A stretch of DNA of 38,354 bases. Origin: Pseudomonadota bacterium (lineage in GTDB: Bacteria > Pseudomonadota > Alphaproteobacteria > Acetobacterales > Acetobacteraceae). Below are positions 8,923-28,371 of this stretch, piece by piece. Location of the stretch: positions 1 through 38,354 of the forward strand of contig JAKAEC010000013.1 of the NCBI GenBank assembly GCA_021818425.1. The letters are read 5' to 3'. Both the position numbers and the translations under genes were made by a program. The first letter of the stretch is position 1; every line of letters starts with the position of its first letter. The notes below the pieces were generated by a model. That model saw only the letters and a program-made list of their open reading frames with translations. It ran no database searches and was not told where the DNA came from.

Positions 8923-9702
8923 ATGGCAAAGAAACTTGTTTGGGGCCGTGCTTGGCATGGTCGTTCGTATGATCTTGGGCGGATGAGCCTACGGGAACTC
9001 TGGGCGGCCTATCTCACGTACCCCGCCATCAGCCTCTACGCCTGCCTAGCCGTGCTTGCCGGCGCCTACGCACTGTTTACGGCCTGGCACTGGCAACAGA
9101 TCGTAGTGCCCACCGTGGCGGTGCTCATCGTCTATCCCCTGGCTTGGTACGGGCTGCACCGCTTTGTACTACATGGGCGTTGGCTCTACCGCATGCACTG
9201 GAGTGCCGCTCTCTGGAAGCGCATCCATTTCGATCATCATCAGGATCCGCACAGGCTCGAAGTGCTATTCGGCTCCTCCCTTAACACTATACCCACCATG
9301 CTCGTCATCACCTTGCCAGTGGGCTATGAGTTGGCGGGATGGACAGGCTTTGCCGCAGGATTCTGCACCGCACTCGTCACCACGTGCGTGTACGAGTTTG
9401 TCCACTGTATCCAGCATTTGAACTACAAGCCGAAAAACCGTTTCGTACAGAAGCTCAAGCGCGACCATCTGCTGCACCACTTTCAGAATGAGAAAGTGAA
9501 TTACGGCATCGTCTCTTTCCTGCCGGATGAGCTGTTCAATTCCTACGTCGCCGACCCGAAAGACTGCCCCAAAAGCCCGACTGTGTTCAATCTCGGCTAT
9601 GACCTGGAGGAAGCAAAGCGTTACCCATGGGTAATGGAGCTAACCGGCAGCCCCCCCCGGAATAAGCCTCCAGGTGCGATGCAGGAGCGGTTTGACCAAT
9701 GA
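8923..9702 (+). CDS. Sterol desaturase/fatty acid hydroxylase family protein, predicted ceramide hydroxylase
   Basis: A 259-residue integral-membrane di-iron oxygenase. The histidine boxes are complete: HRFVLH (79-84), HFDHHQDPH (102-110), HCIQH (161-165) and HLLHH (182-186), between hydrophobic segments at about 32-75 and 118-160. The family hydroxylates or desaturates sterols, fatty acids and sphingoid bases at the membrane. Its stop overlaps the start of the ceramide synthase gene as ATGA, so the two are made together. I infer that it hydroxylates the long-chain base or the N-acyl chain of ceramide. The exact position cannot be told from sequence. Confidence 0.85.
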   Translation: MAKKLVWGRAWHGRSYDLGRMSLRELWAAYLTYPAISLYACLAVLAGAYALFTAWHWQQIVVPTVAVLIVYPLAWYGLHRFVLHGRWLYRMHWSAALWKRIHFDHHQDPHRLEVLFGSSLNTIPTMLVITLPVGYELAGWTGFAAGFCTALVTTCVYEFVHCIQHLNYKPKNRFVQKLKRDHLLHHFQNEKVNYGIVSFLPDELFNSYVADPKDCPKSPTVFNLGYDLEEAKRYPWVMELTGSPPRNKPPGAMQERFDQ

Positions 9703-10829
9703 GCGAAATCAAGATTATTCCCGTTACGGACAAGAAACTCCTCAAGCGCTTTATCCTCTTGCCCGAGAGGCTGCATCAAACCGATCCCGCGTATATCGCG
9801 CCCCTGCATATGGAACGCGAGGAAGCACTCAGCTCAAAGAATCCATTCTTCAGTCATGCTGAGGTGCAGTTCTGGCTGGCGGTGAGAGATGGGCGCGACG
9901 TGGGGCGCATCTCCGCACAGATTGACAAGCTGGCCCGCTCCCTGCGCCCGGATGCGCCGGGCATGTTCGGCATGCTGGCCGCCGAGAATGATCCTGACTT
10001 GTTTGCCCTGCTGCTAGAAACAGCAGCCAACTGGCTGAGGCAGCGCGGTATGGCACGCATGCAGGGTCCGTTCAACCTTAACATTAACGAGGAAACTGGT
10101 GCGCTAATCGACGGGTTCGACACGCCTCCAATGCTTCTGATGCCCCATGACCTACCTTACGTCGCCCAACAGATAGAGGCGCTGGGCATGCAGAAGGCCA
10201 AGGATGTCATCGCGTATCTTTACGACATGCGCGTGGATTTGCCTGACAGCGTACGGCGCCTGCTCGACCGCACGTTGCCGCCAGGACTGAAGGTACGGCC
10301 TCTCAACATGAAGCGCATCAAGGAGGAGATTCAAAACGTCACTTCCATCTTCAACGATGCTTGGTCACAGAACTGGGGTTTTGTACCATTGACCGAAGAG
10401 GAGACGGATTACCTCTCAAAGTCGCTCAAACCGCTTTTGCACCCGCGCTTGACCAGCTTGGTGGAACGTAATGGCGAGCCGGTGGCCTTCATGATCGCGC
10501 TACCCAACCTTAACGAGGCGATTAAGGGGCTAAATGGTAAGATTTTGCCCTTTGGCTGGACCACTCTGCTCTGGCGCCTGAAAGTGGCGGGGGTGAAGAC
10601 CGCGCGCGTGCCGCTAATGGGCGTGCGTCGTTCTGCCGCCAAGGACATGATCGGCAGTTTGATGCCGTACCTGATGATTGACATGGTGCGCCGGGAGGGG
10701 CTGAAGATGGGCTATACCCATATCGAACTCTCATGGATTCTTGAAGACAACATGCCGATGCGCCGCATGATCGAAAGCCTGAACGCCAAGCCCTATAAAA
10801 CCTACCGCGTATTCGAGACAGCACTCTAA
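9699..10829 (+). CDS. GNAT-like N-acyltransferase, predicted bacterial ceramide synthase (bCerS)
   Basis: A soluble 376-residue protein with a C-terminal GNAT-like acyltransferase fold. Conserved blocks include RMQGPFNLNINEETGALIDG at about residues 120-139, GMQKAKDVIAYLYDM, FNDAWSQNWGFVPLTEEE and ELSWILEDNMPMRRM near the C terminus. It resembles the protein that acts as ceramide synthase (bCerS) in Caulobacter, a family unrelated to the eukaryotic membrane enzyme. It would N-acylate 3-ketosphinganine or the long-chain base. ATGA coupling to the hydroxylase, and the presence of spt, acp, AasR-like and CerR-like genes within 12 kb, strongly support this role. Homology is recognised by eye, not by search. 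Confidence 0.85.
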   Translation: MSEIKIIPVTDKKLLKRFILLPERLHQTDPAYIAPLHMEREEALSSKNPFFSHAEVQFWLAVRDGRDVGRISAQIDKLARSLRPDAPGMFGMLAAENDPDLFALLLETAANWLRQRGMARMQGPFNLNINEETGALIDGFDTPPMLLMPHDLPYVAQQIEALGMQKAKDVIAYLYDMRVDLPDSVRRLLDRTLPPGLKVRPLNMKRIKEEIQNVTSIFNDAWSQNWGFVPLTEEETDYLSKSLKPLLHPRLTSLVERNGEPVAFMIALPNLNEAIKGLNGKILPFGWTTLLWRLKVAGVKTARVPLMGVRRSAAKDMIGSLMPYLMIDMVRREGLKMGYTHIELSWILEDNMPMRRMIESLNAKPYKTYRVFETAL

Positions 10830-11160
10830 TCCACCTGCGCTGGCATGGCCCAATGCCAGCCAGCCACAGGGCGCATCCCGTTGCCATTGGCGTCATAGCC
10901 GGGCTCGCTCGCCAAAGCGTACATCCGCAATGGTCCTGCCAGACAATACCCAGACTATCGCGTATTATGGAATGGCCGTCACCAGAGGGGAGTACGCATG
11001 CACGAGCACTCCCGTGGCACCGGCATGAGCCAGGAATCAACCTAATACACTGACATTTGTTTTGTTTTCGGAAAGGGCCCCGCGCCCGCCTGTTGTGCCC
11101 AATCACCATGTCACCTTTGGCTACGGACGTGAGATTTTCTTCCACCGCACCGGGCATGAT
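10830..11160. other. 331-base gap between convergent genes
   Basis: The space between the converging ceramide synthase and ceramide reductase genes. It holds an 8-bp hairpin at 10839-10860 and a T-rich run near 11053-11070. I see no supported gene, RNA or repeat. A 32-residue minus-strand frame at 10826-10924 has coding-like third positions but no recognisable similarity. Confidence 0.5.
10839..10860. terminator. Possible bidirectional terminator hairpin
   Basis: An 8-bp perfect stem (GCTGGCAT / ATGCCAGC, loop GGCCCA) lies 10 bases after the ceramide synthase stop, between convergent genes. No U-tract follows on either strand, so it is a weak or Rho-assisted terminator at best. Confidence 0.35.
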
Positions 11161-12129
11161 TCAGCCAGAGCCACTTTGCCTCAACCACCCTACTTGTCGG
11201 TACCAGGCAACAGCTTCTGCAAACCCCGCCGCCAGGGAGATACGCGGCCTATAAATCTCCCGCGGCAACAATTCCGAATTAGAAACAGACCAATCAGGAT
11301 GTAGCATCTCCCGCGCCTTGCCTAGCGTGAAAATTGGTCTTGTTCCACGCCCACTCCTCAGTCGTTCAGATAAAAACCCAGCAGACAGAACCAGAATCCT
11401 TGGCAGATTAATGCAAATAGGCGCGCCGCCCGTAGCGCGCGCAGCTTGCGTCATCAGCGCGCGTATCTCATAGCCTTCCGGATTTTCATCAGCCAAGGCA
11501 AAACATCCCGGCCGGAACTTTGGTCCCACCATCGCTGCAATCGCCCCCGCGGCATCTCGCGCGTGAATCACCGCTGCCTTACCGTGACCGAGCAGTGGCG
11601 CCACTTTCCATAAACTTTCCTGAAAAACCGCCAGGGTTTCCCTGTCCCACGGCCCATAGACCGCGGGCGGGCGAATGATCGCCAACTGCTCTGCAGCGCC
11701 GCCAAACATCCGCCTGACCTCGTCTTCCGCCGCGCGCTTACTAAATGCATAATTTGAAAGTTGCGGTTCCCGCGCAGCAAGGGATGAAATCATGATAAAC
11801 TTGGCCATGGGGGCCATGCGCCGCGTGGCCCGTGCCACGGCCACCGTGCCGTCTCGGTTGGCGCGCATGAACGCGGCCCTGTCGCGCGCCTTTATCAATC
11901 CCGCCGCATGCACTACCACATCCGCACCCTGCACCAATGCCGCCATAGCGGCCTCATCTTCCAGAGTGCCATTCACGGTTTCAAAGGCCAGTCCCTCAAG
12001 GGCGACATGGGTAACAGGACGCCGCACGAGCAGTCGCAGGCGCAATCCCGCTTGGGCTAGGGCAGGTACCAAATGCAACCCCAGAAACCCTGTTCCGCCG
12101 GTAACGGCGACCAGCGGGGACAGACTCAT
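11161..12129 (-). CDS. Extended SDR (NAD-dependent epimerase family), predicted ceramide reductase CerR
   Basis: A 322-residue extended short-chain dehydrogenase with the dinucleotide-binding VTGGTGFLG at residues 9-17, HAAGLIK at 74-80, SSLAARE with the catalytic Ser, and the active-site pair YAFSK (Y127, K131). In Caulobacter an SDR of this kind beside spt reduces the 3-keto group of ketoceramide (CerR). Here it is the second gene of a minus-strand pair and overlaps the fatty acyl-AMP ligase stop-to-start as ATGA. The role as keto-reductase is inferred from the cluster; the fold and cofactor type are clear. It could in principle be a sugar epimerase for the glycan part. Confidence 0.82.
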   Translation of the reverse strand: MSLSPLVAVTGGTGFLGLHLVPALAQAGLRLRLLVRRPVTHVALEGLAFETVNGTLEDEAAMAALVQGADVVVHAAGLIKARDRAAFMRANRDGTVAVARATRRMAPMAKFIMISSLAAREPQLSNYAFSKRAAEDEVRRMFGGAAEQLAIIRPPAVYGPWDRETLAVFQESLWKVAPLLGHGKAAVIHARDAAGAIAAMVGPKFRPGCFALADENPEGYEIRALMTQAARATGGAPICINLPRILVLSAGFLSERLRSGRGTRPIFTLGKAREMLHPDWSVSNSELLPREIYRPRISLAAGFAEAVAWYRQVGWLRQSGSG

Positions 12130-13865
12130 TCAGCCGCAGTGGCAGGCGCGCGGGGTTGAAAGGCGCCGTCGAGATACATCGCCCGGGCACGCGAACGGCT
12201 AAGCTTGCCCGACGAGGTCTGCGGAAGACTGTGCGGAGGCACCAGCACTACGCGCGTTTCAAGCCCCTGGCGACCGCGGAAGAAGCGCGTAAGCTCCAGC
12301 GCCAGCGCCTCCCGCTGGGCAGGGTCGGTGGTACGGCACTGCACGAGGACCACGACCTCCTCATCCTCGCCGTTATCTGTGGAAAACACCGCCACATCGC
12401 CACTACGCAGGGCGGGAACTTCCGCCTCAGCTGCCCATTCCAGATCCTGGGGCCACACATTGCGGCCATTCACGATCACGAGATCCTTCGCTCGGCCGGT
12501 AATCACGATCTGCCCATTGATCAAATAGCCTAGATCGCCAGTATCCAGCCAACCATCACGGGAAAGCACGCGCGCGGTTTCTTCCGGTGCACCGAAATAG
12601 CCCAACATCAGGCTGGGCCCCCGCACAAAAATATGGCCTACCTCGCGCTCGGCAAGCAGCGTGCTATCTGGCCCGCGCACCTCCACCTCGTGCGCCGGCA
12701 GCATCTGGCCGCAGATCACGAAATGCCTGGTGCGCTCGCTGTTCTCGTTGGCGGGCACGGCGCGGTGCTCGCGTTCCAATACCAGCCCATCCACCGCATC
12801 CTCCCTCGCCCCTTGGCCATCTGGACTGAAGCTTAGAGCCAACGTGGCTTCGGCCATGCCATAGCATGGGATGAAGGCGGTTTGAGAAAAGCCGATGCTC
12901 CCGAAACGTTCGGCAAAGCGCGTCAGTACCGCTGGGCGGATCATATCCCCACCAATTCCGGCCCGGCGCCAGGAGGAAAGGTCGATACCATCCGTCGAGG
13001 CCGTTTGCGCCCGACGTGCGCAAAGCTCGTAACCAAAGGACGGGCTGAAGGAGATGCTGCCCTTGTTGCGGGTGATCAACTGCAACCACAGCAACGGCCG
13101 ACGGGCAAATTCGCGCGTAGGCAGCACGTCCACCGAGAGCTGGCAGGCCATTGGCATCAACAGAAACCCGACCAGTCCCATGTCGTGGTAATATGGCAAC
13201 CAACTTGTGCAGCGATCGTTCTCGTTCACCTGCAGACCGTATTTGGCCATGTAATGCGCATTAGCCATGAAGGCCGCTTGCGAGACCGCCACACCTAACG
13301 GAAAGCGCGTAGAGCCAGAGGAGAATTGCAGATAAGCCAGCGACTCGGGCACGGGCAAGCCGCCCTCAGCCGCCATCGGCGCGTTTTCTAGGGCGGAAAT
13401 CACGCCCGAACAGCGCAAATTCAACCCCTCCACAGCTTCCGCGAGCCAATCCGCAAGCACTTGTGGGCCGAAAACGGCATGGGCATCCGCCCCCTGGATC
13501 ATCCGGCGCAGGAAACCAATATAGCCTTCTTTGCCGCCAAAGGCTGCAGGCAAAGGCAGGGGGGCCGGCACCAACCCGGCATATTGGCAGGCAAAGAAGG
13601 CGCGGGCAAAATCCCCGTCGCTCTCGGCTAGCAGACCGACGCGCTCGCCTGGCTTCAACCCCGTGCCGAGCAGCCGGCGGGCCAGGGCGATTGCCTGCAC
13701 CCGCAGCGTGGCGTAGGGAAGCGATTCGGCGAGAATACCCTTGCCTGAATAGAAATTAAGGCCCGTCGGGCCTTGCGCTGCATAGTCCAGGGCCTCGGCT
13801 ATGGTTCCGAAATCGGCGAGACGCTTGACCAGCCCATGATGGTGAGTCGGGGTAGGCTCAGTCAT
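12126..13865 (-). CDS. Fatty acyl-AMP ligase / acyl-ACP synthetase, AasR-like
   Basis: A 579-residue ANL-superfamily enzyme of the fatty acyl-AMP ligase type. It shows the P-loop FSSGSTRFPLG (181-191), SWLPYYHDMGLVG, YGMAEATL (335-342), GWLDTGDLGY (438-447), GRAKDLVIVNGRNVWPQDLE and the C-terminal catalytic lysine in QTSSGKLSR (K554). Such enzymes activate fatty acids as acyl-AMP and load them onto an acyl carrier protein. In Caulobacter the homologue (AasR) charges the dedicated ACP that feeds serine palmitoyltransferase. Here the ACP gene is at 20594. It leads a two-gene operon with the ceramide reductase gene. I am confident of the class; the ACP partner is inferred. Confidence 0.88.
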   Translation of the reverse strand: MTEPTPTHHHGLVKRLADFGTIAEALDYAAQGPTGLNFYSGKGILAESLPYATLRVQAIALARRLLGTGLKPGERVGLLAESDGDFARAFFACQYAGLVPAPLPLPAAFGGKEGYIGFLRRMIQGADAHAVFGPQVLADWLAEAVEGLNLRCSGVISALENAPMAAEGGLPVPESLAYLQFSSGSTRFPLGVAVSQAAFMANAHYMAKYGLQVNENDRCTSWLPYYHDMGLVGFLLMPMACQLSVDVLPTREFARRPLLWLQLITRNKGSISFSPSFGYELCARRAQTASTDGIDLSSWRRAGIGGDMIRPAVLTRFAERFGSIGFSQTAFIPCYGMAEATLALSFSPDGQGAREDAVDGLVLEREHRAVPANENSERTRHFVICGQMLPAHEVEVRGPDSTLLAEREVGHIFVRGPSLMLGYFGAPEETARVLSRDGWLDTGDLGYLINGQIVITGRAKDLVIVNGRNVWPQDLEWAAEAEVPALRSGDVAVFSTDNGEDEEVVVLVQCRTTDPAQREALALELTRFFRGRQGLETRVVLVPPHSLPQTSSGKLSRSRARAMYLDGAFQPRAPATAAE

Positions 13866-14024
13866 ATTGCCTGAAATTTACCATTGATGCCATCCGATGG
13901 CGCTAACAGACTCGCAAGTGAATGGCAATGGCTTTGCCGGATGGCGCGGTTGACAGCAAGTCTGTCCGCCGCCTAGCTCCCCCACCAGTGCATGTCTTCC
14001 CCGCCGCCGGATTACTCTTTCCTT

Positions 14025-14996
14025 ATGTCAATTCCCAGAACGCTGCACTTTTGTTGGATCGGCCCTCACCTTACCTGGGCTCACGGCTTCGCACTGCTCT
14101 CCGCCGCCGCCAAGAGCGGGATGGACCAGGTCATTCTCCACCACACGGACGAACTGGCTGACGGCCCGGCGCTTGGCGCGGTGGTGACTGCAGGCGTTAC
14201 GCTCTCCCGCCTCTCGCCGCAGGCGCTGTTGGCGCCAGTGCAAGCTCAGCTTGGACTCGGCGAGACCCTCACCCTTCTGCACGCCCGGTTGCAAAGCCCC
14301 ACGCAGCGGGCGGATCTGCTGCGCGCCGCCCTCCTGTACAGCCGCGGCGGCGTTTATATGGATGTAGATACCCTCACCTTGACATCGCTCACAGAACTGC
14401 TGGAAACACAGCAGTTTATCGGGGCAGAGCGCATCGTCTGGCCCCATTGGATCTATCAATCGAACTCGCCCCTAGTCTGGGCCAAGCATCTGGGGCTGGA
14501 CGTACTGCGCAAGATGCTACGCTTGGCACCGGGTGGCTGGCGCGCCTTCCGCGCCGTGGAGAGCTGGTATGTGCCGGCCGTAAATAACGCCGTAATGGGC
14601 GCCGAGCCCGGTGCCCCCTTGTTCGCCACTGTGCTGCGCACCATAGCAGCTCTGCCAGATGGAGCCCTCCCTGGCCCTTACGCGCTGGGGCCCGATATCT
14701 ATCAAGCGCTGCTAACGACCTCACCGCCACCAAGACTCGTCATCCACGAGCCAGCCTGTTTCTACCCGCTGGCACCGGAAATCTCGGAACATTGGTTCCG
14801 CCCTTGCCACAATGCGCAGGCCGCGCTGGACCACGTGCTCAGCCCCCGAACCAGCGTGGTACATTGGTACGGCTCGGTCCGCACTAAGCCCTATGTGGCA
14901 CAGATCAGCCCCAATTATGTGCGTACCAACTGCCAAACACAACTTTATAGCGCTCTAGTCTGTCGCCTTCTGCCAGCGCTGACGGGCCTGCAATAA
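14025..14996 (+). CDS. GT32-type glycosyltransferase with DXD sugar-binding motif
   Basis: A 323-residue protein starting with the family-typical IPRTLHFCWIG and containing RADLLRAALLYSRGGVYMDVD (R95 to D115), the nucleotide-sugar and metal-binding core of the Gly_transf_sug (Och1-like, CAZy GT32) fold. The frame opens at ATG 13992, 11 codons upstream; neither start has a good ribosome site, and 14025 is preferred because homologues begin at IPR. The yeast inositol-phosphoceramide mannosyltransferases Sur1 and Csh1 belong to GT32. The gene sits upstream of the inositol operon on the same strand, so glycosylation of an inositol lipid is a reasonable inference. The sugar donor is unknown. Confidence 0.78.
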   Translation: MSIPRTLHFCWIGPHLTWAHGFALLSAAAKSGMDQVILHHTDELADGPALGAVVTAGVTLSRLSPQALLAPVQAQLGLGETLTLLHARLQSPTQRADLLRAALLYSRGGVYMDVDTLTLTSLTELLETQQFIGAERIVWPHWIYQSNSPLVWAKHLGLDVLRKMLRLAPGGWRAFRAVESWYVPAVNNAVMGAEPGAPLFATVLRTIAALPDGALPGPYALGPDIYQALLTTSPPPRLVIHEPACFYPLAPEISEHWFRPCHNAQAALDHVLSPRTSVVHWYGSVRTKPYVAQISPNYVRTNCQTQLYSALVCRLLPALTGLQ

Positions 14997-15339
14997 AGCC
15001 AGGTTTTCTATCTTACCTGTCTGTCACACTTGCGACATATGGCAGAAAGAGCTACGACCCTGGCCAAACTTACCGCGCAGAGTTCGGACTCACCCAGATT
15101 TTCCCGCAGTCCGTCCGGAGCCTTTCGCACTATTGCGCGGCGTTCCGGTGCCGTTTTGGCAGGGTTGCGATTGGCAGGAGGCTTTAGGGTACGGGGTTGA
15201 GGTACGACGGCGATTCCCAATGCATTTTTGGCGTATGGCGGGCAAGCTGTGATGGCCGGGGTGTGCTTGGACATCCGGCGCCTTGGCCCTGGGTGGCGTC
15301 CTGCTCCCAGACAGAATTTAGCGAGAGACGAGGTTGATT
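14997..15339. other. 343-base region upstream of the inositol operon
   Basis: No convincing gene on either strand; a minus-strand frame at 15008-15274 has no recognisable similarity. It should contain the promoter of the ino1 operon, but I could not pick a clear -35/-10 pair. GAGG lies 7 bases before the ino1 ATG. Confidence 0.5.
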
Positions 15340-18071: not shown

Positions 18072-18125
18072 AGCCAGCTTCACATATCTGGCCACCGGCA
18101 CACTCGCAATCGGGTCAAACAGATA

Positions 18126-20370: not shown

Positions 20371-20593
20371 GGCGCCAAACCAATTCTCTCCGGCGTATCT
20401 AACCTTGTCGTCCCCCGCCAGAGCGGCTGCACCAGGCCAAAGGCTCCATTCGTCCAGAAGGCTCGTGACAATACTATGCCCGATCTTTAATAGAGCAGGC
20501 AGGTAATTTATATAGTTTTTATTGCACGGTTGCCATCTCTCCTCTTGCGGGATTGTCGTGCATGGAACGTCCGAGGGAGCCATACGCAACCAA
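20371..20593. promoter_or_regulatory. Divergent promoter region between lptF and acp
   Basis: 223 bases separating divergent lptF (minus) and acp-spt (plus). It contains an AT-rich core near 20488-20525. A weak plus-strand promoter-like pair is GTGACA, a 17-base spacer, then TAATAG. No firm operator was found. A shared control region for lipid export and synthesis would be consistent with the layout. Confidence 0.35.
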
Positions 20594-20845
20594 ATGACTG
20601 ATCAAGCCAATGAAGTCCGTGAGATTATCTTCGGCACACTGCAAGCCGCGTTGCCGCAAGCGCGGCCACTGTCCAACGAGACCCATATTATCGAGGATTT
20701 GGGGCTCGATTCTGTCGCGGTGATGGATTTCGTGATGGAAATCGAGGACAAGCTTGATATCTCCGTGCCACTAGACAAGATCGCCGAGGTGGAAACGTTG
20801 GGCGATCTTGTTGCCACCGTTCAGCGCCTGAAGGAAGCCGCGTAG
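20594..20845 (+). CDS. Acyl carrier protein dedicated to sphingolipid synthesis
   Basis: An 83-residue acidic ACP with the phosphopantetheine-attachment serine in GLDSVAVMDF (S40). The frame runs back to 20522, but ATG 20594 gives the normal ACP length; AGGGAG lies about 15 bases upstream. The serine palmitoyltransferase gene begins 4 bases after its stop, which marks it as the acyl donor carrier for that enzyme, charged by the fatty acyl-AMP ligase at 12126. It is distinct in context from housekeeping AcpP, which lies with fab genes. Confidence 0.9.
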   Translation: MTDQANEVREIIFGTLQAALPQARPLSNETHIIEDLGLDSVAVMDFVMEIEDKLDISVPLDKIAEVETLGDLVATVQRLKEAA

Positions 20846-20849
20846 CTAG

Positions 20850-22064
20850 ATGGCATTGCTCGACAAATACGCTTCCCTGGCGGCGCAGTACCGCCAGTTG
20901 GAAGAAGCTGGCGCGAACCCCTTCAATGTCCCGTTCGACGAGGTGCTTTCTCCGACCGAGGCGATTATATCGGGGCGGAAGACGTTGCTTCTCGGCACCA
21001 ACAATTATCTCGGCCTCACCTACGACCCGGCGGTGATCGACGCCGCCAACGCCGCCACCAGCGCCATGGGGAGCGGCACCACTGGCTCGCGTATTGCCAA
21101 CGGCAGCTATGACAGCCATGCCCGGCTGGAAGCAGCCCTGGCCGACTTCTACGGACGCAAACACGGCTTGGTATTCTCCACCGGATACCAAGCCAACCTT
21201 GGCATCATCTCTGCCCTCGCAGGCAAGGGCGACCACCTGCTGCTGGACGCGGACTCTCATGCCTCCATCTATGACGGCGCGCGGCTTGGCCATGCCCAAG
21301 TTACACGCTTCCGCCATAATAGCCCGGACGACCTCGCCAACCGCCTGCGTCGCTTGGCGGGTGAGCCGGGCGAGAAGATCGTTATCGTCGAGGGCATTTA
21401 CTCCATGCTGGGCGACACTGCCCCCCTAAAGGAATTTGCCGCCGTGAAACGCGAGTATGGCGCTTATTTGGTGGTGGACGAGGCCCACTCGCTGGGCGTT
21501 CTTGGCGCCACCGGCCGTGGTCTCGCCGAGCTGGCCGGCATCGAGACAGATGCGGATTTCATCGTTGGCACCTTCTCTAAGAGCCTCGCGGGTATTGGCG
21601 GTTTCGCGGTCACGGATATAGAAGGCGCAGATATTCTGCGCGTTGTTTCCCGACCGTATATGTTCACCGCTTCCTTGCCGCCCGCCAATATCGCCGCCAC
21701 ATTAGCCGCTTTGCAGCAGTTGCGCGCAAGGCCGGAGCTGCGCCGCAGCCTCAACGAAAACGCGCTGCGACTTTACAATGGACTTGCGGGTCTGGGTTTC
21801 GAGCTTGGCCCCGAACCCAACCCCGTTGTTTCTGCCGTCATGCCCTCGGCAGAGGCTGCCTTCGGTTTCTGGGCAGCTTTGCTGAAGGCCGGGCTTTACA
21901 CTAATGTTAGTCTGCCGCCTGCTACACCCAAGGGGCTGGCTCTGTTACGCTCCAGCGTCAGCGCCGCCCATAGTTCGAAGCAGATCGACCACGCCATAGC
22001 CCTGTTCGCCGAAACCGGAAGGGAATTGGGCCTGTTGAATGCCGAAATGGCGGCGTTGAAATAG
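20850..22064 (+). CDS. spt: Serine palmitoyltransferase
   Basis: Spt condenses L-serine with an acyl thioester to 3-ketosphinganine, the committed step of sphingolipid synthesis, in the cytoplasm. This 404-residue alpha-oxoamine synthase has GTNNYLGL (49-56), NGSYDSHARLE (84-93), the PLP-stacking His in DADSHASIYDG (H137), VVDEAHSLGVLG (D210, H213) and the Schiff-base lysine in GTFSKSLAGIGG (K244). The GTFSKS form and the preceding ACP gene separate it from AKB ligase and BioF. The ribosome site AAGGAAG lies in the end of acp. A GT4 glycosyltransferase and a PIG-L deacetylase follow at once, probably in the same transcript. Confidence 0.93.
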   Translation: MALLDKYASLAAQYRQLEEAGANPFNVPFDEVLSPTEAIISGRKTLLLGTNNYLGLTYDPAVIDAANAATSAMGSGTTGSRIANGSYDSHARLEAALADFYGRKHGLVFSTGYQANLGIISALAGKGDHLLLDADSHASIYDGARLGHAQVTRFRHNSPDDLANRLRRLAGEPGEKIVIVEGIYSMLGDTAPLKEFAAVKREYGAYLVVDEAHSLGVLGATGRGLAELAGIETDADFIVGTFSKSLAGIGGFAVTDIEGADILRVVSRPYMFTASLPPANIAATLAALQQLRARPELRRSLNENALRLYNGLAGLGFELGPEPNPVVSAVMPSAEAAFGFWAALLKAGLYTNVSLPPATPKGLALLRSSVSAAHSSKQIDHAIALFAETGRELGLLNAEMAALK

Positions 22065-22072
22065 CTGCACCC

Positions 22073-23242
22073 ATGCGCCAAGTCGGAGTCTTCCGCCATA
22101 ATTTGTTCAAGCTTTCCGAGCCTTTCATCCCCCAGCAGGCGCAGCGCCTGCAGCGCTACCGCCCGCTTTATCTAGGCCGGTTGCGTTATGGCTCGGCCCC
22201 GCCGGGAGCAGAAGCGCTGTTACTGGAAGACCTCGCCCCTAAAATGCGCCTACTGCCCGCCGCTTGGCACATGCTCTCCGTCAGCCCGCATCCCTACCTC
22301 TACATGCTGGAAGGAAGGCGGCTCGATCTCATCCACGCCCATTTCGGAGTGGAGGGCGTGTACGCCTTGCCTTTGGCCGCCAATCTGAACGTGCCGCTCA
22401 TTACCACCTTTCACGGCTTCGACGCCACGCTGGCGCCGTTCGGCCTGCTCGCTAACCCGGCCTGGGTACATTACGCGCTGAGACGCGGGCGGCTTGCGCG
22501 GCAGGGCAACCTATTTCTCGCCGCCTCCAACTTCCTACGGGAGAAGCTGCTGGCGCTGGATTTCCCACCCGAGCTCGTGCAGACACATTATATCGGCGTG
22601 GATACCAGTGCCATCGCACCACGCACCCCTGCACAAGAGGAATCTTGCATCCTGCATGTCGCACGACTGGAGGAGGTGAAAGGTACCGAATATCTGATCC
22701 GTGCCTTCGCACTTATCGCTCCGCACAATCAGACAGCTCAGCTGGTCATCATCGGCGACGGCAAGCTGCGCAAAAGCCTTGAGCGACTGGCGCGGGAAAC
22801 CCACCTAGCCGAACGCATCCACTTCCTGGGCGCGCTCCCCCATGCCGAGGTTCTAATCTGGATGCGCCGTGCCGCAATGCTTGCCCTGCCCAGCATTAAA
22901 ACTAGTTCGGGGCGGGAGGAGGGGCTCGGTATGGTGATGTTAGAAGCCGCAGCCACTGGCGTGGCCAGCATCGGCTCACGCGTTGGCGGCATTCCCGAAG
23001 GTATCGCGGAAGGAGAAACCGGCTTCTTGGTGCCTGAACGCGATCCGGAGGCCCTCGCCACCGCCATTGGTACGTTGCTTGCCAATCCCAGCTTGCGCGT
23101 GCGCATGGGCGAGGCCGCCCGCCGCCGCGTGGAACAGCATTTCAACCTTGCCCACCAAACCGCGGTACTGGAAGACATTTATGACGGGCTGCTCAGCGCC
23201 CGCGAGAATGGTGGGGCGGCCGCGCGCCAGGAAAATAGATGA
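22073..23242 (+). CDS. GT4 glycosyltransferase, predicted sphingolipid headgroup transferase
   Basis: A 389-residue retaining GT-B enzyme. Visible features are HAHFGVEG (about 85-92), TTFHGFD, the donor-site segment ILHVARLEEVKGTEYLIRAF, and the EX7E motif region REEGLGMVMLEAAATG. It starts 8 bases after spt and overlaps the PIG-L deacetylase by ATGA. A GT4 plus PIG-L pair acting on inositol is exactly how GPI anchors (PIG-A, PIG-L) and mycothiol (MshA, MshB) begin, with GlcNAc transfer and then deacetylation. I infer an N-acetylhexosaminyl transfer to an inositol-phosphoceramide; the sugar cannot be read from sequence. Confidence 0.85.
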   Translation: MRQVGVFRHNLFKLSEPFIPQQAQRLQRYRPLYLGRLRYGSAPPGAEALLLEDLAPKMRLLPAAWHMLSVSPHPYLYMLEGRRLDLIHAHFGVEGVYALPLAANLNVPLITTFHGFDATLAPFGLLANPAWVHYALRRGRLARQGNLFLAASNFLREKLLALDFPPELVQTHYIGVDTSAIAPRTPAQEESCILHVARLEEVKGTEYLIRAFALIAPHNQTAQLVIIGDGKLRKSLERLARETHLAERIHFLGALPHAEVLIWMRRAAMLALPSIKTSSGREEGLGMVMLEAAATGVASIGSRVGGIPEGIAEGETGFLVPERDPEALATAIGTLLANPSLRVRMGEAARRRVEQHFNLAHQTAVLEDIYDGLLSARENGGAAARQENR

Positions 23243-23985
23243 CCCGCACCGTGGTGGTGGCCGCGCACCCTGACGATGAAATCCTCTGGCTGTCTTCCGC
23301 CGTGGAAAAGGCCGACCCCGTGGTGCTGTGCTTTGGCGCGCCCCACGGCAAACCAGAAAAGGTGCAAGCTCGTGCAAACGCCGTCGCCGCCCTCAAACTC
23401 CCTCGCCTCGTCAACCTCGCCATTCCGGAAAGCGGCAGCCGCCTACATGTGGATTGGCAAAACCCTATACTCACCAAAACGGGCATCGCCATCACTGAAC
23501 CCGAGGCCCAAATCCGTTACGATACCAATTTTACAACCCTTATTGAAAAACTCCGCCCGATTCTCACGGGTGCCGCGGATGTTTATACCCACAACCCTTG
23601 GGGTGAATACGGCCACCCCGAACATATCCAGCTTCACCGCGCCGTCGTGGAGCTGCAAAAAGAGCTAAGTTTTACCATCTGGTTCTCGAACTACATGGCC
23701 CCCCTTAACCGGCCACTCATCCGCTCACTCCACCTCACACCGCTTTGGGCCAAAAAAAGCGTGGCGGTGCCAGATGTGCGCGTTGCCCGCCGCCTGCGCG
23801 CCATCTATCTGCGCCACCGCGTCTGGACTTGGTCCCTCTTCCACCGCTGGCCCGCCGTGGAAACGCTCTACGCCCAGCCTCCAGGCCGGCGTGAGGGCTG
23901 GCACAGTTTGGTGGGCGAAACGCTGGTGGACGTGACGAAGCTGCGCTGGTGGCGGGGAACTCAGGCGGCAAGGTGGGTAGTTTAG
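23239..23985 (+). CDS. PIG-L/LmbE family deacetylase
   Basis: A 248-residue zinc-dependent deacetylase of the PIG-L family. AHPDDE (residues 9-14) and HNPWGEYGHPEH (118-129) supply the zinc ligands and the catalytic Asp. The family removes N-acetyl from GlcNAc linked to inositol (PIG-L, MshB) or from related amino sugars. ATGA overlap with the preceding GT4 implies sequential action on the same product, giving a free amine and so a positive charge on the lipid headgroup. The segment after residue 150 is basic (VARRLRAIYLRHR), which could favour membrane contact. Confidence 0.88.
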   Translation: MTRTVVVAAHPDDEILWLSSAVEKADPVVLCFGAPHGKPEKVQARANAVAALKLPRLVNLAIPESGSRLHVDWQNPILTKTGIAITEPEAQIRYDTNFTTLIEKLRPILTGAADVYTHNPWGEYGHPEHIQLHRAVVELQKELSFTIWFSNYMAPLNRPLIRSLHLTPLWAKKSVAVPDVRVARRLRAIYLRHRVWTWSLFHRWPAVETLYAQPPGRREGWHSLVGETLVDVTKLRWWRGTQAARWVV

Positions 23986-24349
23986 GGCAGAAAATAGTCG
24001 CATTATTTTGTTTTGCTGAGAGAGCCTTGCCTCTCATGGATACATTCATCTGATAAAACTCTAAAAACCAAAATGGACGGGCTGAAGGGCTTCCCGCAGA
24101 CACTCGAGGCGGCCTCCCCCAGACGCGGATCCAGACCCGCCTCGTTCATCTGCTGCGCCATTCTATGAACTTCGGCTGCAGGTTATGATATCGATTGGGA
24201 AAAAGTAATCGCCTAATCACAGATTTCAGTTGATATAGGTTTATCCTAAATCACGACCAAAAATCATGTGGACCCTTTTCTTCGAAAACAGAAACTTGTT
24301 GCTCTAAACAACCAGCATCCCGTTATTTCATAAATTCCCTACTCGCATT
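23986..24349. other. AT-rich gap with a transposase scrap
   Basis: 364 bases between the deacetylase and flippase ends, clearly richer in A+T than the rest. Apart from the IS256 fragment (24073-24180) and a 6-bp stem at 24017-24036 without a proper U-tract, I see no gene or repeat. Confidence 0.5.
24073..24180 (+). mobile_element. Fragment of an IS256-family transposase
   Basis: Frame one reads MDGLKGFPQTLEAA; one frameshift later PQTRIQTRLVHLLRHSMNF follows. Together these match the conserved DGLKGFP...VQTCIVHLIRNS.NFV core of IS256-family transposases. Only about 35 codons remain and no terminal repeats were found, so it is a dead remnant. Confidence 0.75.
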
Positions 24350-25822
24350 CTACGCGGCCCCATCCCGTGTCGTCTTTCTCCCCCACAAACCCAACCCACC
24401 ATAAGCCAGCCCGGTTGCCACTACCGCCGCCGCAATCCGCGCTGCAGCGTGACCGCCAAATGGAAATGCCCTTGCCACCAACGTAAACGCCACCATGAGC
24501 GCCACCACCAGCCCCGGCGCCAAAAACGGTTTCAACAACGCAAGCGGCGAAACCTGCCATTGCGCCCGCAGATAATTCACGCTCCAGATCAACAGAAATG
24601 GATAAATTGCTAGCCAAGCTAGGGACACGGCGACCAACCCGGCATCGCCACGCACTGTTAGCCCGGCAAGAAGAATAAGGCCGCTCAGTAGCAGCAGCGT
24701 GGCGAAAGATAATTTGGCTGCCGTGCCGGGGCGGCCGGAACTCATCAGCACGGGCGTGACAAGCTGCGTGGCAACGCGCAACATCGCTGCCACTGCCAGA
24801 ATCTGCAGTGGCACGGCCGCCGCCGCATAACTATGCCCCTGCGAGTCATGCAGCAGCCCCATCAACGGCACCGCCATCAGTCCCAGCCCCGTCATGCAAG
24901 GGGTTGTGAGCGTGGTGAGGCGCTGCAGGGACCAGAGTAGCGCTTCGCGTAGATGCGTTGGTACGGCTGCCACGCGAGCAAAGACCGGCAGGGCGGTGCG
25001 GTTAACCAGCGCGCCTACCGCCATTGCTGGCTCCATCGCCAAGTCGAAGGCCACGCGGTACACGGCCAGAGAGGCAGCGCCATAAAACCAGCCTACGAGC
25101 AGGTAATCAATATTCTTAAAAATTTGATCGGAGATGTTAGCACCAGCCGAACGTAGCCCAAATGACAAGAGCGGCCGGATAGATTCGAAATTAAAATGCC
25201 ATCCCGGTTTGAACGGACTGGCCCAGAGTGTTCCCGCCAAGATAAACACGCCGCTGGAGACATATCCGCCCACCAGTGCCCAGCTACCACCGCCCGCCAT
25301 GGCGATGCCCAACCGCGTCATAGCCGCACCGAAAGTGGAGACTACGTTGACGACAGCGATCTTTTCATAGCGCAGTTCCCGGTTAAGCATGGCGATAGGT
25401 ATCACCGCCGCGCCCACCAGGGGCTGTTTGGCTGCCAGCGCTAGGAAATAAATCGGGATGCCCTCCATGCCGTAAATCCAGCCCACGGCAGGGGAAAGCA
25501 GCACCGCCAACGCCCCCACGACAAATGCCAGCGCCATGATGAACCAGAACAACGACTGCAATTGCCGCTCATTCAGGCTTTTCGCCTGAATGAGCGCATC
25601 GCCCGTGCCGAGACCGTCGAAGGCTTCCACCACCATACCAATGGAGAGCACCAGCGAGCCTATGCCTACCTGGGTTTTGGTTAGGAAGGTCAGCACGGCG
25701 ATAATGGTGGCGAAATCCGTGATTCTGGCAATGATGATTCCACTGCCCAGCCAGTTGAAGCCACGCGCCAGATGGCGCTTATGCTGTTCCGTCTCGGCCA
25801 CGGATGCGGAATGCTCGTCCAT
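24350..25822 (-). CDS. Lipid-linked glycan flippase (Wzx/polysaccharide_synt family)
   Basis: A 490-residue multi-helix membrane protein (about 12-14 helices) of the MOP superfamily, close to WzxC-type flippases: an N-terminal RGFNWLGSGIIIARITDF, then a characteristic AKQPLVGAAVIPIAMLNREL block. It would flip a lipid-linked oligosaccharide across the inner membrane. Its start abuts the stop of the GT9 gene (TGAATG). It is the last gene of a GT4-GT9-flippase operon that converges on the PIG-L gene. A perfect 13-bp hairpin lies within its coding sequence. The substrate is unknown: an exopolysaccharide or O-antigen unit, or the glycosphingolipid, are options. Confidence 0.85.
   Translation of the reverse strand: MDEHSASVAETEQHKRHLARGFNWLGSGIIIARITDFATIIAVLTFLTKTQVGIGSLVLSIGMVVEAFDGLGTGDALIQAKSLNERQLQSLFWFIMALAFVVGALAVLLSPAVGWIYGMEGIPIYFLALAAKQPLVGAAVIPIAMLNRELRYEKIAVVNVVSTFGAAMTRLGIAMAGGGSWALVGGYVSSGVFILAGTLWASPFKPGWHFNFESIRPLLSFGLRSAGANISDQIFKNIDYLLVGWFYGAASLAVYRVAFDLAMEPAMAVGALVNRTALPVFARVAAVPTHLREALLWSLQRLTTLTTPCMTGLGLMAVPLMGLLHDSQGHSYAAAAVPLQILAVAAMLRVATQLVTPVLMSSGRPGTAAKLSFATLLLLSGLILLAGLTVRGDAGLVAVSLAWLAIYPFLLIWSVNYLRAQWQVSPLALLKPFLAPGLVVALMVAFTLVARAFPFGGHAAARIAAAVVATGLAYGGLGLWGRKTTRDGAA
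25566..25596 (-). repeat. Perfect 13-bp inverted repeat inside the flippase gene
   Basis: CGCTCATTCAGGC and GCCTGAATGAGCG form a 13-bp stem around a 5-base loop, in codons about 76-86 of the flippase (AKSLNERQ region). In the mRNA this would be a stable hairpin with a GAAAA loop. No U-tract follows. Confidence 0.7.
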
Positions 25823-26971
25823 TCAACCTCCGGCTGCTTCTGATCCCGCGGCCGGGGAAAATTGTCCGCGTGCCCACAAATGGTCGATGGCGGCGGTTAC
25901 GCGTGACACGCCAATCTGTTCCATGCAGCCCACGTTGCCCAAACATTGCCTAGGGGAGCGACCGCAGCGTTCAATCCATCCGCGGTGGCGCTCAAAAACA
26001 TCGTGCTGGTCGCGGCACGGAAAGCCCTCAATCGTGATCTCATCGCAGGGCGTGTCGCGCCAGAATCGTCCGCGACCGAACAGCAGCGGACTGCCGGGGC
26101 CAAAGAGCGAAAGGGCGGGAACACCGGTCAGCCGCGCGAGATGGGCAACCCCCGTATCTGGGGATATGAATAGGGCGGCCTGTGCCATCAGCTCCCACAT
26201 CTGCGCAAGATCAAGCTGCCCCGCATAGCTGGCATACCGGCCCTCGGGGTCGATCTGCGTCACCAAAATATCTTCTCCGGGTCCGCCGCTCCAAACCGGC
26301 GTGACGCCGCGTTCGACCAACCAGCCCGCCAGATGCCGCCAATGCGCAACGGACCATAATTTCACCGCCGTGCTGGCGCCCACATGCAGCACGGCATAAG
26401 GGTAAGCTGGCAAGTCGAACGACTTGAAGCTTGGCTGTGGCCAGTCGGCCCTGCTGAAAGGGCGTGGCTCTGCACCCGGGCACAAGGTTGCGAAAATATC
26501 GGTCATCGCCATAGGGTTTTGCGGATATTCAATCAGCTCATCGATTAGCCAACTTTTGACCCCGGGACGGTCTCCCGCATGTGCGACGATCCACTTCGCC
26601 CGCAACGCCGCGGCCAGCCAGCCATGGCGGTTGTCTCCGGGAATGATGGCGAGATCGAACCCGGCCTGCGCCAGCATCGCGGCGACCGTCTCGAACCGGC
26701 GGGGATGATAAGGCCAGACCGTCACGCCATAAGGCTTTGTCTGGTAGAGCGGGAGCATGGGCAGCGTGCTGATGAGCACGATTTCTGCAGTTGGATACTG
26801 CTCCCGCAATTTCGCCAGCAGAGAGGTCACAAGCAAAGCATCGCCCAACCGCAAATGCGGCGCCACCAGAATTCGCGATGGCGCGGCTGGCCGCTGCCGG
26901 CAAGACGATGTCAGCCGAGCCCATAGCGCATGCAGAACCGTGCGGATGATGGAAGGGACTTCGCTATCCAT
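25823..26971 (-). CDS. GT9 (heptosyltransferase-family) glycosyltransferase
   Basis: A 382-residue GT-B protein of the LPS heptosyltransferase family. It shows ILVAPHLRLGDALLVTSLL near residues 34-52 and the donor-site block ALFISPDTGVAHLARLTGVP, followed by SLFGPGSP. A cysteine-rich C-terminal part (PCRDQHDVF...CGRSPRQCLGNVGC) is typical of several GT9 proteins. It follows the GT4 gene by 33 bases and abuts the flippase. A role in LPS core or another surface glycan is likely; the sugar is unknown. Confidence 0.83.
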   Translation of the reverse strand: MDSEVPSIIRTVLHALWARLTSSCRQRPAAPSRILVAPHLRLGDALLVTSLLAKLREQYPTAEIVLISTLPMLPLYQTKPYGVTVWPYHPRRFETVAAMLAQAGFDLAIIPGDNRHGWLAAALRAKWIVAHAGDRPGVKSWLIDELIEYPQNPMAMTDIFATLCPGAEPRPFSRADWPQPSFKSFDLPAYPYAVLHVGASTAVKLWSVAHWRHLAGWLVERGVTPVWSGGPGEDILVTQIDPEGRYASYAGQLDLAQMWELMAQAALFISPDTGVAHLARLTGVPALSLFGPGSPLLFGRGRFWRDTPCDEITIEGFPCRDQHDVFERHRGWIERCGRSPRQCLGNVGCMEQIGVSRVTAAIDHLWARGQFSPAAGSEAAGG

Positions 26972-27004
26972 GACGGCTGCCGCGCCGGGTGGCGTTGCTG
27001 GCGT

Positions 27005-28255
27005 TCATTCGGCACGTTGACCGGTGCCATCCGGCGGCAAAATCACCGAGCGTGTGCAAGCAAAATGTGCGAACCAGCGACGCGATCCCCGCTTCCAAGC
27101 CGTAACTTGCGTCGCCCCCCAGTTGCCTGGTTTGGGCCTAGCCGCATCCGCCAGCCAAGCGCTGACTGTGGCAAAAACCTTCTCCGCCCTGGCATTCCAT
27201 GTATAATTCCGGCTATCCGCCGCAGCCCCGGCGGACAACTTTGCTGCCAGCACCTCATCCTCGGTCAGCGCCAGCAATCCAGCCACCAAAGCCTCCAGCG
27301 AGTCCGGCTGTACTAACAGGGCCGTTTCGTCATTCTTCAACACCTCTGCCACATCCGGCGTCCGCCCCGCTAGAATCGGCCGCCCGGAACCGAGATAGAA
27401 AAATAGCTTCAACGGCAGCACCGTGGAGCCGAACTTTGCCAAAGGCTGCAGGGAGGGCGGAATCAACAGCACATCGGCGGCATGGATATAATTACCGAGT
27501 GTGGCTTCTGTCTGCCAGGGCACGACGATGATGTTCTGCACCTGCCGCGCCAGCGCCTCCACCTTGCCCTCGCCATAGGAGCCTACGAACAGGAAGGTCA
27601 GCTGCGGCAATTGCTTCGCCGCCTCAATCACCAACTCTAACCCCTTCTTGTGATTCACCCGCCCCGTATAAATCACCGTCTTGGCTTCTGCCGCTACGCC
27701 GATCCGCGCCTTGGCATCAGCCAACGGAATCGGCGTCATAAAGCGCCTGGGTTCGAACCCGTTGTGTATGCAGCGCAGCTTCTCTGAAGGCACCCCCAGC
27801 TCGATATATTTCTGCCGCGTGTACTCGGAATGACAGATGCTGCCCAGGAAACGCGGATGGGTGAACAGCTTGTACAACCAGCGCTGCAAGGGGGGAATCT
27901 GGTCAGGCCACGGGCGGTAATGATCGAACACCACTCGCTGCCCGCACAGAATTGACATCCACGCTACCCAGAGATTGCGCGTATAAACCAGATCCGCCTG
28001 ATGGAATTCTCGACGCAGCCCAATCGTGATCCCGCACAGGAAGTGCCGTAGGGCTGCGGGCCTCAGCGGTGCGAATGCGCGGATGATAGGCATGTTTGCC
28101 AGCCCCTGCGCCACGCCCTGGTTCTCCCGCGTCACCGGAACATGCAGCCAGTTATCCTCCAGGTGCACACCCAGATAGCGCGACGTGGTAACAAACACTT
28201 CCGCGTCCGCCTCGGCGTTGGGCAGTGGATTTTCAAAGGCGAAAAGGATTTTCAT
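27005..28255 (-). CDS. GT4-family glycosyltransferase
   Basis: A 416-residue GT-B glycosyltransferase. Family features are VYTRNLWVAWMS and FDHYRPWPD in the acceptor half, the donor-binding VIYTGRVNHKKGLELVIEAA, and PLKLFFYLGSGRPILAG with a KLFFYLGSG variant in place of the usual EX7E. The frame opens at 28315, but MKILFAFENPLP at 28255 is the natural N terminus, with GAGAG about 9 bases upstream. It is first in the GT4-GT9-flippase operon. The basic C-terminal tail (about residue 385 on) is long for the family. Donor and acceptor are unknown. Confidence 0.84.
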   Translation of the reverse strand: MKILFAFENPLPNAEADAEVFVTTSRYLGVHLEDNWLHVPVTRENQGVAQGLANMPIIRAFAPLRPAALRHFLCGITIGLRREFHQADLVYTRNLWVAWMSILCGQRVVFDHYRPWPDQIPPLQRWLYKLFTHPRFLGSICHSEYTRQKYIELGVPSEKLRCIHNGFEPRRFMTPIPLADAKARIGVAAEAKTVIYTGRVNHKKGLELVIEAAKQLPQLTFLFVGSYGEGKVEALARQVQNIIVVPWQTEATLGNYIHAADVLLIPPSLQPLAKFGSTVLPLKLFFYLGSGRPILAGRTPDVAEVLKNDETALLVQPDSLEALVAGLLALTEDEVLAAKLSAGAAADSRNYTWNARAEKVFATVSAWLADAARPKPGNWGATQVTAWKRGSRRWFAHFACTRSVILPPDGTGQRAE

Positions 28256-28371
28256 CGCGCTCTCAAGCTTTATGGACGCAGGCAGGCGGTTTTCGTTTAA
28301 ATCGCGCGGCGGCATGATCTAAAGCCATCCGGCCCTGCGCGCAAGGCGACAACGGCAAGCCAAATTCTGGC

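Follow-up and report, generated by a model that had tools for sequence, protein, structure and literature searches.

A putative phosphosphingolipid gene cluster with an inositol head-group cassette in the Acidocella group of the Acetobacteraceae

The core pathway of bacterial ceramide synthesis is known from Caulobacter. In Caulobacter crescentus, the ceramide receives a phosphoglycerate head group by way of a ceramide kinase and CpgA, C and D (PMC11324152, PMC12275187). A second pair of LptF/LptG permeases, LptF2 and LptG2, is encoded beside the sphingolipid genes of this organism and has already been proposed to transport the sphingolipids (PMC11324152); how these lipids travel to the outer membrane is stated to be an open question (PMC11087976, PMC11324152). 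For the Bacteroidetes, a route to inositol lipids that employs a nucleoside triphosphate (NTP) transferase and a cytidine diphosphate (CDP)-alcohol transferase has also been proposed already (PMC9246714). A taxonomy survey of 2020 still described alphaproteobacterial sphingolipids as apparently confined to the Sphingomonadales (PMC7179689), and a lipid resembling phosphatidylinositol-dihydroceramide is described from Novosphingobium acidiphilum, a strain said to be without homology to either Bacteroidetes cluster (PMC9246714). Here, we describe a gene cluster at positions 8923-28315 of a contig assigned to the Acidocella group (Acetobacteraceae), in which genes for ceramide synthesis, an inositol operon, glycosyltransferases and a second LptF/LptG pair lie together. 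Among the papers listed in searches of the open-licence literature of PubMed Central, we found no earlier description of it for the Acetobacteraceae, a scope that takes in neither subscription papers nor preprints; papers there that hold both 'Acidocella' and 'sphingolipid' draw, in the passages available, no link between them.

The 'window', by which we mean the whole stretch of DNA analysed, is one complete contig (C19) of 38,354 bases, from a genome of 2.13 Mb in 116 contigs that is 86% complete. Gene families were called with Pfam and NCBIfam, and selected proteins were searched against PDB sequences, modelled with AlphaFold2 (AF2) and compared with Foldseek. The cluster is real, is conserved, and crosses lineages: it is a bacterial phosphosphingolipid cluster that carries an inositol head-group cassette. 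Its biochemistry is predicted. We consider it rather probable that the cluster makes ceramide and adds inositol-phosphate to it via CDP-inositol, and that its Lpt pair is dedicated to the sphingolipid.

Genes of the cluster

The cassette consists of three genes on the forward strand:

15334-16476, + strand, Ino1, inositol-3-phosphate synthase (PF01658; PDB 1gr0, E 1.8e-114)
16473-17189, + strand, an NTP transferase resembling inositol-phosphate cytidylyltransferase, IPCT (top three PDB matches 2xme, 4mnd and 4jd0)
17190-18071, + strand, CDP-alcohol phosphotransferase, candidate ceramide phosphoinositol transferase (PF01066)

The first two overlap by 4 bases and the second and third abut (gap 0). 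Ino1 resembles the enzyme of Mycobacterium tuberculosis (PDB 1gr0). A preliminary description of this DNA, made from the letters alone, had proposed a CDP-inositol route, and the second gene bears this out: its nearest relatives of solved structure are IPCTs, residues R13, K21 and D106 are invariant in 18 of 18 aligned proteins, and a source of inositol-phosphate is encoded in the same operon. One of those relatives, 4jd0, is listed among the PDB matches simply as nucleotidyl transferase; it is PMC12275187 that calls it an inositol-phosphate cytidylyltransferase. From these families we infer that CDP-inositol is formed. The third protein has the full D-x2-DG-x2-AR-x8-G-x3-D-x3-D motif, with D86, D89, G90, A93, R94, G103, D107 and D111 invariant in all 20 aligned sequences.

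The ceramide genes lie on both sides of this operon:

8923-9702, + strand, fatty-acid hydroxylase, candidate ceramide hydroxylase (PF04116)
9699-10829, + strand, bCerS-like protein, candidate ceramide synthase (family label from position and relatives)
11161-12129, - strand, CerR-like reductase of the NAD-dependent epimerase family (PF01370; NCBIfam matches below cut-offs only)
12126-13865, - strand, AasR-like fatty acyl-AMP/ACP ligase (PF00501; NF006624, 846 bits against a cut-off of 600)
20594-20845, + strand, acyl carrier protein (ACP), AcpR-like (PF00550, E 1.9e-11), directly upstream of spt
20850-22064, + strand, Spt, serine palmitoyltransferase (NF047599, 645.8 bits against a cut-off of 500; PDB 2x8u, E 4.5e-130)

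An ACP gene directly upstream of Spt is a mark of the rhodobacterial ceramide core (PMC9386255), and the window has this arrangement, with a gap of 4 bases. An AasR-type ligase, above the NF006624 cut-off, is encoded near acpR-spt, a position from which we take it to be AasR proper. The hydroxylase gene overlaps that of the bCerS-like protein by 4 bases, as CerR does AasR, and PF04116 recurs in many relatives' clusters. The families named in the preliminary description all lie where it had placed them, according to Pfam and NCBIfam, with the exception of bCerS. CerR is identified at the level of the epimerase family (PF01370). The bCerS-like protein is named after its position and its relatives: it has no match in Pfam, NCBIfam or the PDB, and is the weakest identification in the cluster. 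For its relatives on plasmids, the ten matches listed of 45 bear the annotation dATP pyrophosphohydrolase or hypothetical, and one of them sits in a sphingolipid-type cluster of Roseomonas with LptF/LptG, a sterol desaturase, a CDP-alcohol transferase and a protein of the acylglycerol-kinase family.

Two permease genes separate the inositol operon from ACP-Spt:

18126-19214, - strand, LptG2, second LptF/LptG-family permease (PF03739)
19204-20589, - strand, LptF2 (Pfam match starts at residue 79; the true start probably lies downstream of the ORF start at 20589)

The pair is antiparallel to the inositol operon, 54 bases separating their ends. The genome has another LptF/LptG pair besides, on contig C78, and LpxC is likewise encoded outside the cluster; together, LpxC and the other pair suggest that lipopolysaccharide export is independent of the cluster's own pair. 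No match to the LptC family appeared among the window open reading frames (ORFs) scanned, in a scan that was not aimed at LptC2, a protein encoded in the Caulobacter region.

The remaining genes encode glycosyltransferases (GTs) and their neighbours:

13992-14996, + strand, GT32 glycosyltransferase (PF04488; DXD motif intact)
22073-23242, + strand, GT4 glycosyltransferase, GT4a (Pfam; NCBIfam matches all below cut-off)
23239-23985, + strand, PIG-L family de-N-acetylase (PF02585, 31.8 bits against a cut-off of 28.2)
24350-25822, - strand, polysaccharide-type flippase-like protein, candidate flippase (PF13440; recurrent neighbour in relatives)
25823-26971, - strand, GT9 glycosyltransferase (not conserved; in one relative's cluster only)
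27005-28315, - strand, second GT4 glycosyltransferase, GT4b (recurrent neighbour of the inositol module)

GT4a and PIG-L continue the ACP-Spt unit, with a gap of 8 bases after Spt and an overlap of 4 bases between the two. The metal-site motifs of PIG-L, HPDDE and HxxH, are invariant in nine of nine aligned proteins, and its search of the PDB gave no sequence match. In GT32, the motif G-G-x-Y-x-D-x-D-T is invariant in 12 of 12; its AF2 model (predicted local distance difference test, pLDDT, 81.3) matches GT-A-type glycosyltransferases in Foldseek, including Och1. This search is too broad, and silent on substrate, to identify a fungal-type mannosyl-inositol-phosphoceramide (MIPC) enzyme, and we did not use it as evidence for one.

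Outside the cluster, an aminotransferase ORF at 3860-5218 has a long N-terminal extension, its TTG start being probably too early. At 28372-37544 follow genes of ordinary metabolism (a MYG1-type exonuclease, PF03690; 5-oxoprolinase-like genes, PF02786, PF02626/PF02682 and PF03746; and a glycolate-oxidase-like set), which adjoin the cluster in only one of the relatives' regions compared (G001).

Conservation and co-occurrence

The genus set comprises 38 genomes, the window's included; 37 of them, along with 24 others, entered the first search for IPCT. True Spt, for which we required an identity of 70% or more across the aligned stretch (paralogues reach at most 36%), is present in 22 of the 38. 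Those 22 also have Ino1, which all 16 Spt-minus genomes lack; in one Spt-plus genome, G001, it is a 30-residue fragment at the contig start. IPCT (at least 63% identity) was found in 20 of the 37, all Spt-plus, and G061 was added from its cluster; of the Spt-plus genomes only G001 is without it, and there the contig starts within LptF2. LptG2 (at least 45%) occurs in 21 of 38, all Spt-plus, and is missing from G001, where the contig ends. PIG-L occurs in 19, again all Spt-plus; it is missing from G004, G018 and G025, whose contigs end there. Gene order is conserved across the genus wherever contigs suffice to tell. Three clusters are rearranged, and these add weight to the coupling: the inositol operon sits in reversed orientation between bCerS and AasR-CerR in G006, ends beside bCerS in G020, and lies between AasR and GT32-GT4b-bCerS in G028. 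Conserved order and shared presence uphold the earlier proposal of a functional link between the inositol operon on one side and ceramide synthesis and a further Lpt pair on the other. One close relative of the window's species, G007 (L261, G007:C142), has no match to Spt, Ino1, IPCT, LptG2 or PIG-L; at 80% completeness, it may or may not have lost them.

A Fisher test on the genus table gives 4.5e-11. We set this value aside because related genomes are not independent, and preferred a test on a tree, built from the other LptF and LptG pair in 36 of the 38 genomes (G019 and G029, with no such match, were left out). On it, the Spt label needs four changes, and three independent pairs fall on supported branches.

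The class as a whole was sampled with 387 alphaproteobacterial genomes, a number that counts the window's own; the others have a completeness of 90% or more. Spt (E <= 1e-80) was found in 56 genomes and IPCT (E <= 1e-30) in 11. The four IPCTs of at least 67% identity, the window's among them, all occur with Spt; the seven distant ones (33-40%) never do. Without the window's own, this is three of three against a background of 56 in 387 (Fisher, 0.003). Among the seven, IPCT is fused to the CDP-alcohol transferase in G052, G277 and G471, and a separate CDP-alcohol frame lies nearby in G043, G133 and G213; these six read DGCDGE in place of DGADGQ, and no motif was found in the stretch of G139 examined. 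All three class-sample genomes with fusions are without Spt. The fused family, as collected here, comprises L121, L286, L287, L199, L200, L203 and L204, and reads DGCDGEIARL in six of the seven loci and DGSDGEVARL in L199.

The GTDB genome collection was scanned with a pattern from the IPCT alignment, and the best 80 of 106 loci were taken. They come from Acidocella, Acidisoma, Nitrospirillum, Gluconacetobacter, Lichenicoccus, Nguyenibacter, Elstera and Emcibacter/Kordiimonadaceae, and from metagenome-assembled genomes (MAGs) labelled Gammaproteobacteria, Geothrix, Nitrospirales and others. IPCT stands alone in 76 and is fused in four (L199, L200, L203 and L204). Spt lies within the locus in 31 of the 76 and elsewhere in the genome in four (L126, L134, L141 and L154); among 39 further genomes with stand-alone IPCT that were searched, Spt was found in 33, always with an identity of at least 46%. 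In total, Spt accompanies 68 of the 74 stand-alone loci whose genomes were checked, and the two outside this count, L139 and L150, both hold other ceramide genes. In an Emcibacteraceae locus (L183:8877-15701), Ino1-IPCT occupy one strand, and a polysaccharide-type flippase-like protein, a protein without a Pfam match, a CDP-alcohol transferase and an epimerase the other; Spt is on another contig of that genome.

A proposed pathway and its alternatives

Judging from the families, AasR would load a fatty acid onto the dedicated ACP and Spt would join the acyl group to serine; the bCerS-like and CerR-like proteins would then yield ceramide, to which the hydroxylase would add a hydroxyl group. In parallel, as families and operon suggest, Ino1 would make inositol-3-phosphate, and IPCT would turn this, with cytidine triphosphate, into CDP-inositol. 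The CDP-alcohol phosphotransferase would transfer phospho-inositol from CDP-inositol directly to ceramide, a reaction analogous to the head-group transfer to diacylglycerol of cholinephosphotransferases; with direct transfer, neither a ceramide kinase nor an AUR1-type exchange would be required. That ceramide rather than diacylglycerol is the acceptor is suggested by the co-occurrence. What follows is predicted with less assurance. GT4 might add an acetamido sugar, perhaps N-acetylglucosamine, to the inositol, PIG-L might deacetylate it, and GT32 and the second GT4 may extend it; this sugar step is the least secure. The flippase-like protein and LptF2-LptG2, with the shared Lpt machinery, may then deliver the lipid to the outer membrane. 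The final lipid is probably a glycosylated inositol-phosphoceramide (IPC). The most specific version, a glucosaminyl-inositol-phosphoceramide with a free-base glucosamine-inositol head group, made via CDP-inositol without an AUR1-type IPC synthase and exported to the outer membrane through a dedicated Lpt pair, we put forward tentatively for Acidocella and its relatives, as somewhat less than an even chance.

Several points weigh against this scheme. The whole lipid pathway is predicted from genes. The clean genus table reflects few evolutionary events in one physical cluster, and on the tree IPCT agrees with Spt in 2.9 of the three pairs on average (sign test, p 0.25, G001 scored as absent). 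Stand-alone IPCT occurs without a Spt match in six MAGs (G069, G070, G080, G081, G095 and G100), so the link is not absolute. Nine of the 43 genomes searched, fused-IPCT ones included, are without a clear Spt: among the fused, G102 has none, and G098 and G099 have Spt-like matches of 40% and 36%. A further fused genome, G103, does have Spt (54%), so that Spt does not cleanly divide the two IPCT groups. (The ceramide locus of G103, a Paracoccaceae MAG, also holds an IPCT-like frame of 31% identity between a CerR-like gene and ACP-Spt, L249, which is separate from the fused IPCT of that genome.) The CDP-alcohol transferase falls below the cut-off of all ten NCBIfam models that it matches, and its TM-scores to AF2299 in Foldseek are modest, 0.49-0.54 by query length, so that neither comparison points to a particular acceptor. 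Sugar decoration is not universal: searches of the G013 and G006 regions gave no GT32, and the ten Gluconacetobacter loci showed neither PIG-L nor GT32 within 10 kb. CerR of Caulobacter, finally, is periplasmic (PMC11087976), which bears on the order of head-group addition; if it is so here, head groups would be added to keto-ceramide in the cytoplasm and reduction would follow, or else ceramide would return.

Foldseek was set aside as a means of deciding the acceptor: with the AF2 model of the CDP-alcohol transferase (pLDDT 89.5), AF2299 comes first and phosphatidylinositol-phosphate (PIP) synthases next, and choline phosphotransferases appear only at E near 0.3. The PIP-synthase equivalogs are not matched (NF045883, 41.9 bits against 170; NF052561, 21.3 against 350). 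The operon might instead make phosphatidylinositol, with diacylglycerol as the acceptor, so that ceramide and inositol lipids would be two products of one outer-membrane lipid island, and IPC, if any, would be formed later by head-group exchange. A route from CDP-inositol to a glycerolipid has been proposed for Bacteroidetes (PMC9246714), and the separation of the inositol module from the ceramide genes in Gluconacetobacter, Acidisoma and Lichenicoccus is consistent with this alternative, as are the six MAGs. The preliminary description had held that independent ino1 and spt clusters in related genomes would refute its own proposal. Those MAGs go some way in that direction, but for the most part the refutation failed: within the genus, the lack of Ino1 in every one of the 16 Spt-minus genomes goes the other way and argues against phosphatidylinositol as the product. 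So does the scarcity of candidates for the exchange: PAP2_3, which we take to be the AUR1 family, has only two sub-threshold matches in this genome of 86% completeness (25.1 and 21.2 bits against 27). The first, considered as an AUR1-like enzyme and rejected, is a VTT-PAP2 protein cut by the contig end, nearer to phosphatidylglycerophosphatase B and better fitted by PF01569; the second is a 205-residue ORF. On balance we regard phosphatidylinositol as an unlikely product, and direct transfer to ceramide as the preferred one.

Which lipid the exporter and the sugar enzymes serve can be asked of the wider loci. LptG2 (at least 40% identity) is present in 46 of the 80, and in 16 of the 80 it accompanies the inositol module with no ceramide gene in reach (10 kb at most, some contigs being shorter); these 16 comprise ten Gluconacetobacter, Acidisoma, Lichenicoccus, Nguyenibacter and three MAGs. 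In Gluconacetobacter diazotrophicus, an ACP-Spt-AasR locus lies 2.2 Mb from the inositol module on the chromosome, and has a distant LptG-like match of its own (26%). That LptG2 stays beside the inositol module even at a distance from the genes for ceramide favours an exporter acting on the inositol lipid. The same is favoured, more weakly, for GT4 and PIG-L: GT4a stays with the inositol module, no ceramide gene being in reach, in five loci (L140, L162, L164, L166 and L201, some on short contigs), and PIG-L also in two of these, L162 and L201.

Those five loci speak against a different use of GT4, PIG-L and GT32, in which they would attach sugars, a free amino sugar included, to ceramide itself and so make an ordinary glycosphingolipid, apart from the inositol head group, after the model of the tetraosyl lipids of Sphingomonas. 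GT4 and PIG-L follow directly after spt, and all 26 of the 80 loci that have PIG-L also have GT4 (24 have LptG2), in line with such a use. We judge it doubtful, if only a little more so than the glucosaminyl lipid; it concerns the sugar step only and is compatible with the formation of IPC as proposed above.

Ino1, GT4 and PIG-L are families of mycothiol synthesis as well, and the inositol might go into a soluble product, a di-inositol-phosphate solute or a mycothiol-like thiol. The sole NCBIfam match of Ino1 is mycothiol_INO1, below cut-off, that of PIG-L is MshB, weak, and the sub-cut-off matches of GT4 are led by EpsE, BshA, a PEP-CTERM glycosyltransferase and MshA. CDP-inositol and a membrane phosphotransferase have no known role in mycothiol synthesis, however, and the genes are tightly linked to those for ceramide. 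The genome has no MshC match either, a weak point, for all 14 control genomes matched, most of them below cut-off. Soluble products are thus, in our estimate, most improbable.

Comparison with known systems

The region CC_1168-CC_1152 of C. crescentus, which makes ceramide-phosphoglycerate (CPG2), shares with the window a ceramide core, a cytidylyltransferase, a CDP-alcohol-type enzyme and a second LptF/LptG in one region, and the cassette could be a system of this type with a re-tuned, IPCT-related cytidylyltransferase (PMC12275187, PMC11324152). Several differences make this very unlikely. Ino1 is inside the operon, and an Ino1 operon, GT32 and GT4-PIG-L go unmentioned for the Caulobacter region in the available parts of PMC11324152 and PMC12275187. 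Among the 36 window ORF queries run against Pfam there is no lipid kinase or phosphoesterase; the search for ceramide kinase, likewise without a find, covered the window ORFs scanned. The transferases of a CPG2-looking cluster in Roseomonas, compared in place of CpgD itself, are quite different: its nucleotidyltransferase is 21% identical over 105 residues, with no match to IPCT structures, and its CDP-alcohol enzyme 35% over only 77. A phosphosphingolipid-type cluster on plasmid pRo-1 of Roseomonas gilardii (L294, NZ_CP095555.1:2113-19228) carries an acylglycerol-kinase family gene, CDP-alcohol transferase, metallophosphoesterase, LptF/LptG, sterol desaturase, bCerS-like gene and nucleotidyltransferase; its annotation has three LptF/LptG coding sequences, of which two are short and overlap in the manner of a single split gene. 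If our reading of the window is correct, it would offer a clean genetic system in which to study how sphingolipids reach the outer membrane, since the genes for the putative exporter and for the head group stay together.

Bacteroides thetaiotaomicron (BT_1522-1526) makes IPC with its own inositol synthase, through a PIP intermediate (PIP synthase), a phosphatase and an AUR1-like synthase, none of which was found in the window (PMC8791184, PMC9246714). With sub-threshold PAP2_3 matches only, and no AUR1-type synthase found in the 86% of the genome available, the predicted pathway is not that of Bacteroides. The putative alternative cluster of Bacteroides vulgatus and Prevotella, unconfirmed, has the same Ino1, NTP transferase and CDP-alcohol transferase together with a HAD hydrolase; a ceramide core, Lpt2, GT4 and PIG-L are unmentioned there in the available text (PMC9246714). 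The window holds the first three genes of the alternative inositol-lipid cluster of Heaver, and no HAD hydrolase among its ORFs scanned with Pfam. It would, if we are right, give alphaproteobacteria a way of making inositol sphingolipids that differs from the one in gut Bacteroides, may bear on inositol-like sphingolipids in alphaproteobacteria generally, and would make the key chemistry, CDP-inositol plus ceramide, directly assayable with two enzymes.

Among the closest solved relatives of both CDP-inositol enzymes are IPCT-DIPPS (PDB 4mnd) and AF2299 (4o6m) of Archaeoglobus. The former is a fusion protein whose name refers to di-inositol-phosphate synthesis, whereas the window encodes two separate proteins, and the CDP-alcohol motif of the window, DGADGQLAR, differs from the DGCDGEIAR of most fused bacterial relatives.

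The glycosyl-inositol-phosphoceramides (GIPCs) of fungi and plants, and glycosylphosphatidylinositol (GPI), have IPC, a PF04116 hydroxylase, GT32, and GT4 with PIG-L in common with the cluster by family name. We take yeast Sur1/Csh1 to be GT32, Sur2/Scs7 to be PF04116 and PIG-A to be GT4; glucosamine-bearing glycolipids of Sphingomonas and the enzymes of mycothiol are further parallels. In the GPI pathway, N-acetylglucosamine is first placed on phosphatidylinositol and then de-N-acetylated; the window offers GT4 and PIG-L family members for such steps, the motifs of PIG-L being intact. The preliminary description spoke of a GIPC and GPI 'logic', wording that outruns the evidence, which is one of family names. 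The cluster differs in that CDP-inositol chemistry would replace IPC synthase, in that no protein anchoring is implied, and in that the site of the sugar on inositol is a prediction. If the glucosaminyl lipid that we propose tentatively is real, bacteria would have an equivalent of GIPC and the GPI core whose central step runs by another chemistry.

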